64,000 bases of DNA, taken from NCBI GenBank assembly GCA_002077065.1, contig NAJO01000008.1, forward strand, positions 1,171,145 to 1,235,144, written 5' to 3'. The notes under the pieces are model-generated. The model made no database searches. It saw only the letters and a list, made by a program, of their open reading frames with translations, and was not told where the DNA came from. Both the position numbers and the translations under genes were made by a program. Source of the stretch: Cryoendolithus antarcticus (Eukaryota; Ascomycota; Dothideomycetes; Cladosporiales; Cladosporiaceae). The number at the start of each line of letters is the position of its first letter. Position 1 is the first letter of the stretch. This document shows positions 4,751 to 64,000 of this stretch, one piece after another.

Positions 4751-6357
4751 ATGGCCGACACTGCTGCTAACATTATCACTTACGTTGGCGTTCCGCTGGC
4801 AGTAGCTGGCGTCTTGCCGATTCTATATAATACTATTGCAACCCTCGTACTTCTCAGAAAAGTCAAGAAAACACTCGTGGAGTCAAAAGCCGAGACCCTT
4901 GCGATGCGCAGCGATGTAGTGAACCGAATCGTCGAAGTGGAGCTCCCACGGCACAGAATCACTCCTCTGGACCGAGATAATCATAAGTATTGGGAGCCTC
5001 AATCGACCACAAAGCCGTTAGCTGGAGGCACTTGGGCCTTGCTTGAGTGGAAGCGCAATAGGATGGGCAGCAAAGTTCAGCGCTTTCAGTACATTGATGA
5101 ATTGCGGATCCTTCAAGCAGAGATATCGCTCGGCGAGCTGGTGGCCTATCTACTTGATCTAGGTGCCAAGCCGCATCCGTTAGGCTGGAACGCTCTACGA
5201 TCGAATGGCCTATGGACGCCTGAGGATCAGTGTCTGATGTCAAGCCCAGATGGTCTCGCGAGCGTACTTGCTGTTGCATCATCAGACGACTCTGATGGCC
5301 ATCTCTCGCTCAAGCTTGCTTGGCCGGTGGGCCATTTCGACCCCGTACGTCAACGGTCTTCGCGTGGTTCTGGATGGGTAAGATTGCAATTTGTGGCATT
5401 CGTCGACCATACCGACGCAGTGGCGGAGAGTGCAGTTGTGGATGTCGAATCAGAGCATGCTTTAGTCCATGACGGTACTTCACCCATAGAGGAGAAACGA
5501 GAGGGCAATGCAGGCGATTTTCATGATTGCGAACTAGCGGCTAGTGGTTTGGGATGCGTTCTTGATAAGGGTATCGAAAAGATCGACATCAGTCATCTCA
5601 AGCACTCGGACAGCGCGGTCGAAGGTCTTTGGTTCGCGACAATACTATCAGCCTATGCCACCAAGACCGGTATGTTGCCTAGGTATGCGATCACTGACGC
5701 ATCACTGTTGCTCGTTAGCAAAGCGGTCGTACCTTGTGGGGTACTTGTTATCTTGGGCATGATTCCAGATTCCGAGGCTCCGGAGTGGTCACGGAAGCAT
5801 CAGTCGAGCACTCAGATTGGAGCGCAAAACGTCGATTCCATTGCGAATGACCGCGGTGGTGACAGGATGCAGCAAGCGAGACAGCAGTGGATGAAGTTTG
5901 GTAGACGATCTCAGCGTCCGCCGAGTGAACTCAGAGCACTAATACATGCGTAGAGCACGATCGTCAAGTGAACATCCAGTCAGCTCTCGACAGCAACCGC
6001 TGGGAAAGCAGCAAAGTAGCCCAGCACAGCTTCACGTGGCTACAGAGCAGATCGCCGGAGGCGAACCGCATTGCCCCCCGTATGGAATTGGTCGTCGCAT
6101 CTATACTGCATCAGATGATCCACGACGTCGCCTTTGCTCGCAAGCTATCTACGATGCTCGAGTCATGGAGAGCCTGGAGCTACAGCGGCGGTATGCAACA
6201 ACGGGATCTTGAGACCTTGCAGTCGGATCTTCCCCTGTTTACCAAAGCGGCTCTGCTCATCGGCTTCATCAAGTCATGCAGCGACTCGGATAACGGCAAG
6301 GTCACTAGAGACATTCACAAGTGCCTGGAGGCTCATCAGGTTGTCAGACTGGGTTGA
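4751..6357 (+). CDS. Fungal membrane protein of unknown function
   Basis: I do not recognise a named family. The start is ATG at 4751; the in-frame GTG at 4742 is not needed. A hydrophobic N-terminus ('IITYVGVPLAVAGVLPILYN') is followed by a charged segment and a long soluble part. A second hydrophobic stretch ('LLLVSKAVVPCGVLVILGMI') lies around residues 322-341. The long frame stops at 5953. A GT-AG intron at 5901-5968, with CTAAT as branch site, joins it to a coding-like frame ending at 6357, for 512 residues. Without that intron the protein ends 112 residues earlier. A GTATGT...TTAG pair at 5670-5718 was considered but would break the frame. The gene converges with the acyltransferase gene downstream. 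Confidence 0.55.
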
Positions 6358-60299: not shown

Positions 60300-62836
60300 G
60301 CGGATGCACCCAAAATCTCCTTCGGCTAGGAAGACATCGATAGCATCCTCGCCGCGCTCTGCGGCAGCGAGGCTCAGCAGGATGTCAATGCCACTGCAGA
60401 TAGGGACGTCGAGGGCAAAGATACTGATACGGAGGCTCAGGACCAGGAGAGCACCACGCCGCAGCCCAAGACCAAGATCACAGTCAAGACTAATAGTAAG
60501 GCAGCGCCTAATGTGAACGAGGACGAAGACAATGTGGCGCACCGCAAGTCGCGCGAGACTACCCAATACCTGTGGGACAGATTTGGACGTGCACCAGGAC
60601 GCCTTCCACGACCATTTCTTCGCCTAGTTCGCGCCCAAGTCCGATGTTGCACACGCTCCAGCTCTTTTATTTGCTGATGACATCATACGCGCTGCCAGTG
60701 CCATGGAGGAGGGGATCGAGCATGCAGAGGTCGTGTCCCGTCTTATGACGCGGGACCCGATGTCGGCTATTACGTCGCTATGTTCGACCGCTTGTCAGAG
60801 TATTCAGGCGCCCAGGCGAAGGTTCTCAAGCGTATCAACTCAGCGCAGACTTCTGCACCCACTACTGATTCTCACGCATTTCAGCCATCGGAAGCTTAGT
60901 CTCTGGTGTCCCCGGCCGCGTGGTCTGCTTTGGCATCAGCGAACGTCAACCAGGATGTCCAGCTTAACGTTGTTAGTGTAGCCTTGAGTTCGGCATCGTC
61001 CTACATTGAAGGTAACAGCCACCCTGTGCACATGGCTCCAATCGTAAGCTGCAGTGTACCTCCTAGGAACCAGGAACATCGCGCCGCTGCGCGAGATTGA
61101 TCAAGGATTGAGAAGACTTTCAAGACTCGCCGTCGCTGACTCGCGGCCTCAGTCTACTCTCGCGACCACTACCCAGCTGCTCGACTCTGGCGCATCATCA
61201 TAGGGCGAAGAACTCGCTGTACTGTGTCACGCGGCTGACAAGAGAAGCGGACCTCTCGAGGGTGACGGGCGACCGGCACTGCTAGTGTGGACTGCACCGC
61301 GATCACGGAATGCTGTTGACGCTACCTGAGAGAGCTTCTAGAACACACTACACTCTCGCTGATAGCTTGGATATATAGACACCCTTGCGGCGCCGCATAT
61401 GCTAGCATTACCATCCAAGGTGAGCCGCCGAGATGTTCGCTCCTCTCATCACTCGCGTACATGTCAGCCAGTATCTGTTCTGCTTCAACCAGCTCGAGAA
61501 CGCTGAAGACCCAGGCGATACACGTCTCCCAGCCGCTGCACGCCGCTTCTGTCGCCACATCACGCGAGGCGATACCGACATTCGTAACGCGCTGCCGTTC
61601 ATTCGCTACCATGCTACTCCGGTCGCTCCTCTCAACGCCGGACTGCCCTGGCCTGATCAGCCTGTGCTTTCTGATATGCTCGACCTGTTCACCTTTGCCA
61701 ACCTCTCGGATCCCATGATCTCGACCACGCTGCGGGTTCTCATGACCCTGCGTACAGAAGTGCAAGTAGCTGATGCTAGCATCTTCCCCAAGCTCGACGA
61801 GCTGGCTTGAGTAAGCGACTTCCTCTCAGACGCATCTACGACCCATTTCCTCGCCCCGATTAGACTATCCAAGGCTCATTGGCTGCTCTGTCACGTCAAG
61901 AAGGACAACGACGAGACTGTCATTATGCACGTCGCGGACACTCGGAGACTTTCCTCCGAGTTTGACGAAACCTCCGCTGTCGACTCAGCAACCTCGACAC
62001 CCAAGTCGACTGCCTCAGACCCTATACCTCGAGAAGTAGTCTCAGCCTGCCGTGCAACTCGGGAGCTTGCATTCACAGCCGGTCAGAAGCCGGTCATGAC
62101 TTGGCTTTCCCACCCTCCGACTTATGCGCTGCAGCACCAGCATGACTACGACTTCGGCTTTGCTGCGATAGTCCTCGCAGTTGGCCGCCTTGCACCCGCG
62201 CTGCTCGAAGAATGGAAAGCGCATGGCACTAGCCTCGGCATCGTTCAACAGCTGCACAAAGGTTGACTGTAGCTCATGCTCTACGGGAAAGATTCCAACG
62301 CCAACCAATTGCAGCCGAATGTCACTCAACTTCCAACATCCCACCGTCAACCATAGAAGCGACCGGCGTCTGCTCCAGCCGTGCAGAACTCGAGACCGGC
62401 TCTTCCCACTGCAGCAATCGTCGACGCACCTCCGGAAGGCTTTGACGATCTGCCAGCTGCTCCCGCCATCGGCATTCCGCCTGCGCCGCCACTACCTCTT
62501 GTCGACCTCCATTCATCGTCTTCAGCTCCGGCAGAACCCCGAATCCCAATCGGCACCTCACCAGACGAGATAGCTGCTGCCCAACACGCCCACGTCCTCA
62601 CCTTCTACACCGAGGAGCAACTCGCCCAAGGTAATGCCATGTTTAAGTACGGTTCGGACAGCCGGAAGATCTTGCAAGCACTTATTGCCTGCCGAAGCAA
62701 AGCAAGGCGAGAAATTGCAGCATGGCTGGCCACCGCTGTCGATCTAGACGTAGCGTTTGGCCTGACCCTCCTCCCTACAAAACGGTTTCGGACGCTTCGA
62801 AGTTGCCCCGTTAACTCTATCTCGCGGTTTTTATAA
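60300..62836 (+). pseudogene. Decayed gene with a C48 (Ulp1-like) peptidase region
   Basis: Coding-like text is spread over more than 2 kb in shifting frames with stops. Frame 0 holds 'QYLWDRFGRAP' (about 60,550) and, after a frame change, 'GYYVAMFDRLSEYSGAQAK' (about 60,770), broken by TAG at 60,897. From 61,433 to the end one frame runs through TGA at 61,808, then TGA, TAG and TAG at 62,264-62,350. That part has the protease layout: 'FLAPIRLSKAHWLLCHVKKD' with the His-Trp pair, the Asp in 'MHVADTRR', and the Cys-box position 'QHQHDYDFGFAAIV', where Phe stands in place of the nucleophile Cys. Several stops fit CAG-to-TAG or TGG-to-TGA transitions. C48 domains are common in transposon-borne and repeat-linked fungal genes. 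The true start, intron map and family are unknown. Confidence 0.6.
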
Positions 62837-64000
62837 ATACCTCGTATTCCTACCTAGCGGAATTTTCTAAAAACCCCGAGAATACGCGGTTTTTACGATT
62901 TCTCTCCCGGGAGCCTTCTCTAGGGAATATTAGCTACTTCTATTAGGTTCTCTAGGCTTATTATAGTATATTATATTACTAGATATAGCTAGGAATATTA
63001 CTAGAGAGTCTTACTAAAGACCGCGTATTCTAGGAGAAAAATATTTTATAGGGTTTTTACGTATATCTCTTAAGGAGACTAGACTTATAGCTATTAATAC
63101 TAAGTATAGTAAAGGGAGAGACCTAGCTAATATTAGTAAGAGTAATATTAGATTCCTACCCTATAGGCTTACGAGGATTACGATCTATTATATAACTCTA
63201 CTAAGATCCTTTCTAGACTATCTTAGCTTTAACTATCTTAGTATTAGAGAGATAGAGCCTAAGCTCTTCCTAGACTATAGAGGAAATCCTATAAGCTCTA
63301 ATACTCTAAGTAGATTACTAAAGGAAGAGACTAAACTATATTTTAGTAGAGGCTTTAGTCTTCGACTCTATAGGCATTTAATTACCTATATTATTAAAGA
63401 GAGAATAGTTAGTAAAAGTACCTCTAACCTACTAACTCCTACTAGAAGAAATAAGAAGTACTATAACAATAAGATAGAGGATATTCTAGCTAATAGATCT
63501 ACGACGGTTTCTAATCTAAACTACGCTAGAGAGGCTAATCTATTTAGTAATAAGACGCGAGATATAACTACTAGATCTATAGAGTTTTCTAAGCTATACT
63601 TTACCTACTTTAATCTAAATAACTATATCTCTATAGAGGGAGTACTAGAAGAGGAAGATACTAAAGAATTAGAGGAGAACTCTAGTATTAATAAGGTAAA
63701 TACTACTAAGGACCTAGATACTAACTCTTCTAGTAACTCTAATAGTAGCGTTCTAGATCTAGATATTATATCCCTAGCGCCTACGTCTACTAAGCCTCTT
63801 ACTATTCTAGAGAGTAGTATAGACTCGGATAGTAGTAGCTCTAGTAATCCTATTCTAGAAAGGAGAGATACTAATAGAGTAGATAGTAGCCCTAGTATTC
63901 CTAAGTTTAGAAGACTAGATAAAGATAATATTAGTAGACTAGAAGAGCTAGAGACGCCTACTAAGAAGGATACTATACTAGAGTATATTAATACTATACC
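62806..64000. repeat. AT-rich, CA/TG-depleted block (RIP-like end state), left edge of a repeat island
   Basis: From the last TG at 62,804-62,805 to the window end (1,195 nt) a direct count finds no TG and only two CA (63,375 and 63,467). CG dinucleotides remain (for example in ACGCGG and GACGCGA), and TA is everywhere. This is the signature of repeat-induced point mutation acting on CpA on both strands, known from filamentous ascomycetes. It implies that the DNA was repeated in the genome. The change at 62,805 is abrupt. Short inverted motifs (AGAATACGCG near 62,878 and CGCGTATTCT near 63,022) lie near the edge. The right end is outside the window. Confidence 0.9.
63018..64000 (+). CDS. Long open frame without any possible start codon, within the CA/TG-free block
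   Basis: After TAA at 63,015 this frame is open for 327 codons to the window edge, although TAA and TAG are frequent in the other frames. ATG, GTG, CTG and TTG cannot occur because TG is absent, so ordinary ORF callers miss it. The product has no Met, Trp, Cys or Gln. Its only His, in 'GFSLRLYRHLITYIIKERIV', uses one of the two surviving CA dinucleotides. Around it are 'LSRLLKEETKLYFSRG' and a basic run 'TPTRRNKKYYNNK'. The last 120 residues are Ser/Asn/Asp/Glu-rich. The wording around R-H-L recalls a region of large fungal repeat-encoded proteins (helicase- or recombinase-linked), but I cannot assign it. The 5' start, introns and 3' end are unknown. Confidence 0.55.

Follow-up and report, generated by a model that had tools for sequence, protein, structure and literature searches.

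Repeat-induced point mutation (RIP) changes CpA to TpA in repeated DNA and kills most repeats by turning CAA, CAG and TGG into stop codons, a process that is usually viewed as irreversible. In Podospora, the excerpts available describe a 750-bp CpA-free stretch upstream of NWDp2 and RIP-saturated copies beside working NWD genes that are pseudogenes, and for Leptosphaeria AvrLm6 they report stops in all RIP alleles. Routes by which repeats escape RIP have also been described; those given in the excerpted sources are of other kinds than the one proposed here, for example short, diverged or vegetatively active copies. Genes known from chromosome ends include the telomere-linked RecQ helicases (TLHs) of Ustilago and Fusarium; part of the source describes UTASb as carrying an OrsD domain (PMC10532341), and RIP of the neighbouring FoTeR elements is presented as decay in the part available of another (PMC12857005). 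Here we analyse the last 64 kb (hereafter the window) of contig C128 (NAJO01000008.1) from the 47 Mb, 149-contig genome of Cryoendolithus antarcticus, in which a frame of 327 codons stays open in DNA that has lost almost every CA and TG. The sequences make it probable that this frame is a 5′-truncated copy of a fungal chromosome-end family, a location seen for the copies in the source genome.

Results

The open frame and its DNA

The first 62 kb of the window is ordinary (GC 52-57%, CpA and TpG close to the expected level or higher) and only the last 2-kb bin deviates, CA and TG being nearly absent downstream of 62804. The 983 nt from 63018 to 64000 hold 2 CA (63375 and 63467), 0 TG, 16 CG and 193 TA. 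An original prediction made from these letters held that a single frame had been kept open here, and this was borne out: the plus-strand frame that starts at 63018 runs for 327 codons with 0 stops, against 37 and 76 in the other two plus frames and 12, 68 and 32 in the three minus frames. It was equally correct that the frame lacks Met, Trp, Cys and Gln, and that its single His, codon 120, is a CAT at 63375 using one of the two surviving CA dinucleotides; the second, at 63467, is the junction between two Asn codons. As the frame contains no stop, a non-standard genetic code is unnecessary.

Chance as the source of the open frame was ruled out by shuffled, Markov and saturated sequences. Across all six frames, no run without a stop exceeded 103 codons in 2000 dinucleotide shuffles or 112 codons in 2000 order-2 Markov sequences, so that frames of 300 codons, which the prediction had wondered whether such composition might often give, never appeared. 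When every CA and TG was changed to TA in the 16 ATG-started open reading frames of at least 328 codons within the window (mechanical calls, taken irrespective of gene status), a mean of 18.5 and a minimum of 8 stops arose per 327 codons over 136 overlapping stretches. Recoding the window protein synonymously at random gave 53-111 CA plus TG in 10,000 simulations (5000 for each of two models), against the 2 observed. Among 18 CA/TG-depleted blocks in 17 sources, which were chosen for matching the family or the adjoining repeat, all open stretches of at least 200 codons are the family frame or its antisense.

The frame is indeed open from the proposed start at 63018, but only codons from 19 onwards, at 63072, show homology to the family; codons 1-18 lie outside the gene because a distinct repeat, found at many contig ends, occupies the DNA between 62774 and 63072-63075. 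By blastn, the boundaries of this repeat are identical (62773-62776 to 63072-63075 in the window) at eight of the 14 loci listed, namely on C2, C60, C142, C117, C73, C1, C64 and C61, and C80 matches it over 62775-62955 only. A genome search with 62850-64000 found 26 matching places, 20 of which correspond to the repeat part, 17 of these lying no more than 2 kb from a contig end. The puzzle of how a frame without ATG could start is thereby mostly gone, the window copy being truncated at its 5′ end and long relatives such as P0016, P0017, P0018 and P0021 being listed with an N-terminal Met, as placed by gene callers. To the right, where an extension towards the end of the frame had been proposed, the window stops where C128 stops, and the 3′ end of this copy is therefore known only through the copies on C60, C146 and C69.

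Related proteins and their amino-acid deficit

Homologous proteins, on whose existence the prediction had made its case depend, were found. Searches with the window frame, with a profile of five sequences and with a profile of twelve returned 5, 11 and 15 proteins respectively, amounting to 20 distinct relatives of up to 1298 aa on contigs of up to 3.7 Mb. Alignment A5 comprises 20 members, the window frame and 19 relatives, with P0006 excluded. In its recombinase part, the window protein shares 36-68% identity with the 19 relatives. The longest members with AT-hooks, P0016-P0018 (1193-1298 aa), comprise, in this order, two C2H2-like fingers (assigned by motif), the recombinase domain, a linker rich in Ser and Asn, and paired AT-hooks; paired C-terminal AT-hook-like motifs occur in 11 of the 20 aligned members.

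Five residues, Met, Trp, Cys, Gln and His, can be encoded only by codons that involve CA or TG. With the start Met excluded, they make up less than 1% of 12 of the 20 aligned members and 1.08-3.55% of the other eight, against 11.49% in the long open reading frames of the window. P0011 has none in 679 residues, P0007 has 2 in 706, and P0001, P0002 and P0004 have one each; the figure for P0006 is 2.28%. From this deficit we infer that the genes of the relatives, which are known here as proteins, are equally depleted at the DNA level.

Fourteen alignment columns hold at least three of the five residues: eight Cys/His columns of the fingers (covered by 4-6 members), the His after the second catalytic Arg, the third recombinase His, and four others (547, 685, 962 and 996) to which no role can be put. 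In the ten functional columns, 64 of the 78 residues present belong to these five, against 152 of 14,810 elsewhere, and for the 12 most depleted members the counts are 19 of 27 and 20 of 7393. This contrast is a partly circular description and not a test, since the ten columns were picked, and the four excluded, after the recurrence had been seen; the tally of recurring residues also includes the Gln that P0021 has in place of the recombinase His.

Recombinase features

Tyrosine recombinases carry an HxxR motif, with a His, or in known cases a Lys, three residues before the second catalytic Arg. The first catalytic Arg (motif SPLRG.E) is Arg in all 18 members that cover it, the window copy and P0012 being without the region, and the Lys lying between both Arg, the second Arg and the candidate nucleophile Tyr are invariant wherever covered (Table 1). 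The HxxR His was not found, its place being taken by Lys, Arg, Asn or Ala in 21 of 21 proteins inspected by eye; a conserved His follows the Arg instead. In that column P0004 (residue 222) and P0011 have Tyr and P0021 has Gln, the change from His to Tyr being the outcome of C-to-T in CAT or CAC, as a RIP change would give. The third His/Trp site, nine residues before the Tyr, is His in 12, Arg in 7 and Tyr in 1 of the 20 members.

Table 1. Coordinates of the gene fragment, its parts and the adjoining repeat in the window
Feature	Position	Strand	Basis and remarks
Chromosome-end repeat, ~300 bp	62774..63072	.	CA/TG-free from ~62805; separates the gene fragment from unique chromosomal DNA
Tyrosine-recombinase-like gene fragment, 5′-truncated, RIP-saturated, open	63072..64000	+	Codons 19-327; runs off the contig end; translation, CA/TG counts and 20 related proteins
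Lys of YSKGR, candidate K-beta	63111..63113	+	Lys in 19/19 covering members; role by position only
Arg-His of LYRHL, putative second catalytic Arg and the His whose CAT holds a surviving CA	63372..63377	+	Arg in 20/20; His in 17/20
ANRSTTVSNLNYAR box, candidate nucleophile Tyr at 63522-63524	63489..63530	+	Tyr in 20/20; Arg at the third-recombinase-His position in the window copy
Ser/Asn-rich linker	63624..64000	+	Identity to 19 relatives 11-36% (lowest value on 9 positions only)

The predicted structure of P0004 (mean predicted local distance difference test score (pLDDT) 71, predicted template modelling score 0.72) retrieved only recombinases at the top of the Foldseek list, none of them at E below 0.5; that of P0007 (mean pLDDT 53) gave weak Foldseek matches, as did a comparison against BFVD, in which the first match was a tyrosine-recombinase protein at E 0.15. 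At E 0.1, none of the 20 aligned members matched a Pfam recombinase family, and at E up to 1 a wider Pfam search of the window, C60 and C70 frames and of P0002-P0007, P0009 and P0010 gave nothing beyond helicase domains in P0006 and a further, sub-threshold match in the same protein. A sequence search of PDB with the family profile gave 0 matches. The Arg, Lys, Arg and Tyr kept by all covering members, together with structure matches that list tyrosine recombinases at modest scores, suggest that the family are tyrosine recombinases. P0006 and P0019 are helicase fusions, and 2 of the 20 aligned members match DEAD.

Copies in the source genome

Besides the window copy on C128, 3′ parts of the gene lie on C60, C69, C146 and C66, N-terminal parts that end shortly past PLRGEE on C70 and C86, and a short piece on C2. 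A full-length copy was not found in the source genome; all copies are fragments, and C128 ends inside the gene. TTAGGG telomeres are present in this genome according to a scan for telomere arrays, and TTAGGG/CCCTAA arrays lie within ~2 kb of the copies on C60, C69 and C86, the window copy itself being at a contig end. The C60 copy shares 99.8-100% identity with the window DNA over 454-455 nt. The C60 and C146 frames continue past the linker to paired AT-hooks (GRPRK...RGRPRR) and then a stop; the first hook of C69 reads DRPRK.

Random stops in other copies had been named as the mark of a relic, and here the outcome was divided. The C60, C146 and C69 copies are open over 251-286 codons, whereas matches that reach further upstream carry 4 stops on C66 and 8 on C146, with a frame shift on C146 at about codon 174. 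These stops lie upstream of the point at which DNA similarity to the window starts (codon 151 for C66, 141 for C146), and the stop-bearing DNA may therefore be unrelated or more diverged. The proposed comparison of non-synonymous and synonymous substitution rates (dN/dS, by the Nei-Gojobori method) indicated modest constraint only, with ratios of 0.27-0.91 between close copies and of 0.57-0.80 in comparisons with C66. As evidence of constraint within this genome it is weak, and of all results it speaks most strongly against the window copy itself being a working gene; weak constraint is what would be expected where the fragments are compared mostly over the linker.

Several further frames lie near these copies. 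In the copies on C60, C146 and C69, the strand opposite the linker and AT-hooks holds open frames of 245-258 codons (L009 4124-4900, plus strand; L010 4955-5731 and L011 1690-2427, minus strand), and antisense coding was rejected because the related proteins match the sense frame. Soon after the telomere array of C2, overlapping frames of 145 and 149 codons occupy both strands at 110-556 of L049 (C2:1-4000), and the plus-strand frame begins with 18 codons that match the last part of the window frame. In L046 (C86:397500-403564), a Glu/Arg/Lys-rich frame of 165 codons at 5446-5943 on the plus strand stands in CA/TG-depleted DNA near the telomere; it gave no family match by tblastn and is possibly a second chromosome-end gene of the RIP-target-poor kind. 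On C146 (L010 2-3149, plus strand), overlapping frames of 253 and 840 codons with normal CA and TG resemble Gypsy pol, the type being judged by eye, and this apparently un-RIPed retroelement lies ~1.4 kb from the RIP-saturated block.

Discussion

We consider it probable, from the sequences compared here, that the window frame belongs to a chromosome-end family of tyrosine recombinases kept coding by selection while RIP exhausted its targets. That selection on the protein acted during or after the loss of CpA was the central proposal of the original prediction, and it gains support from 20 relatives with the same deficit, from invariant recombinase residues, and from CA- and TG-dependent residues placed mainly at zinc-finger and recombinase columns. 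On this account the family would have been hit by RIP because it is repeated; RIP would have exhausted nearly all CA and TG targets, and purifying selection would have discarded any copy that gained a stop at a needed codon. Other residues would have taken the places of Gln, Trp, Met and Cys, and synonymous sites would have drifted to target-free codons, with CA and TG surviving mainly where the protein cannot spare them, at the start Met, the zinc ligands and the recombinase His; only these few codons would still be open to damage by RIP. Target-free copies could then multiply with little further RIP damage, the AT-hooks may hold the protein on AT-rich, RIP-made chromosome-end DNA, and the recombinase, by cutting and rejoining DNA, may spread the family between chromosome ends.

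Whether the family is also selfish is more doubtful. We put somewhat short of even chances on a selfish chromosome-end recombinase made RIP-immune by target-free recoding, with Met, Gln, Trp and Cys almost wholly lost and AT-hooks that perhaps land on the AT-rich product of RIP. If so, a genome defence would have shaped a eukaryotic gene family as far as its amino-acid alphabet. The same sequence pattern would be predicted for a by-product of mutation-selection equilibrium, in which a chromosome-end gene with a host function (end maintenance, for example, as proposed for TLHs) is kept under heavy RIP and has no spreading advantage. Such a gene would fit the undepleted relatives with OrsD or helicase parts on C18 and C55 and the helicases carried by P0006 and P0019; the fragments scattered over many chromosome ends are better suited to a repeated or spreading element, though they do not separate the two cleanly. 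We regard the by-product as rather unlikely, its odds overlapping with those of selection-maintained coding under RIP because the core is shared, and sequence cannot tell equilibrium from a spreading advantage.

Several observations speak for a relic. The copies in the source genome are truncated, C66 and C146 have upstream stops and C146 a frame shift, and some copy pairs have dN/dS of 0.5-0.9, all of which would be expected if the gene had been killed by RIP, its frame had stayed open by accident, and duplication after RIP had left the copies sharing that frame. We nevertheless judge such a relic improbable: chance yields no frames of this kind, saturating loss left at least 8 stops in every one of the 136 stretches, and relatives at ~50% identity stay open for as many as 1298 codons and keep their recombinase residues invariant, which strains a relic at the level of the family. 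The window copy alone may be a recent fragment that is no longer used. RIP itself, moreover, is unobserved here, and RID was not identified among the PF00145 matches, the only ones found, which leaves room for an AT-rich replication niche, or for a process other than RIP that targets CpA, as the agent. Change from CpA to TpA is described for RIP in the parts available of three sources (PMC10823647, PMC1805685, PMC2973834), and the loss of CpA and TpG with gain of TpA seen here, confined to repeated chromosome-end DNA, is that pattern; between the C60 and C146 copies, 30 differences are C to T or G to A and 11 the reverse, the direction being unrooted. An agent other than RIP thus seems more improbable still than a relic, and we infer that RIP caused the depletion. 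The PF00145 DNA methylase matches number six (L057-L062, on C86, C106, C71, C57, C82 and C117) and fall into three pairs of similar score, two of them also similar in frame length, a pattern hinting that the genome is duplicated or of hybrid origin.

If selection has indeed kept this family coding, a protein family that stays open after losing its targets would represent a way past RIP, and its members would offer a natural map of irreplaceable recombinase and zinc-finger residues, because CA and TG persist there. RIP-saturated DNA, which is commonly masked as dead in annotation, could then hold living genes.

Comparison with known systems

The original prediction knew of no described family of this kind, and among the matches listed from the open-access literature searched we likewise found none, nor any description of a RIP-target-free gene family. 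Literature on fungal tyrosine recombinases combined with RecQ or telomere-linked helicases, and on OrsD helicases, supplied background alone. The nearest systems each share part of its make-up. TLHs, such as Ustilago UTASa/UTASb and those of Fusarium, have in common with the family their location at chromosome ends, truncated copies and OrsD-like fingers; they differ in having a RecQ-type helicase, a domain of which there is none in P0007, P0009, P0010 or the C60 copy. TLH-like genes of the source genome on C18 (L048) and C55 (L013) are homologous to the family (2.9e-16 between C18 and P0016, 7.8e-17 between C55 and P0007). These loci, L013 with a Helicase_C part and L048 with an OrsD part, contain no CA/TG-depleted blocks; each has two family-homologous regions, with a few stops in the matches. 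To our knowledge, exhausted RIP targets have not been described in any TLH.

Recombinases of the Xer, lambda and Cre type, fungal Cryptons and Starship captains share with the family the Arg, Lys, Arg, Tyr site, and structure comparison lists recombinases for it at modest scores. No complete element of the Crypton or captain kind was seen among the source-genome copies, all of which are truncated. Unlike these recombinases, the family has no Pfam recombinase match and combines OrsD-like fingers, paired AT-hooks and a target-free code. The Podospora NWD genes and Leptosphaeria AvrLm6, as described in the excerpts available, resemble it in having coding sequence mutated at CpA, but differ in that the window frame stays open. 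Phages are known to escape a sequence-directed defence by avoiding restriction sites; whereas phages lose a few short sites, almost all CA and TG have gone here from hundreds of codons, at the cost of five amino acids.
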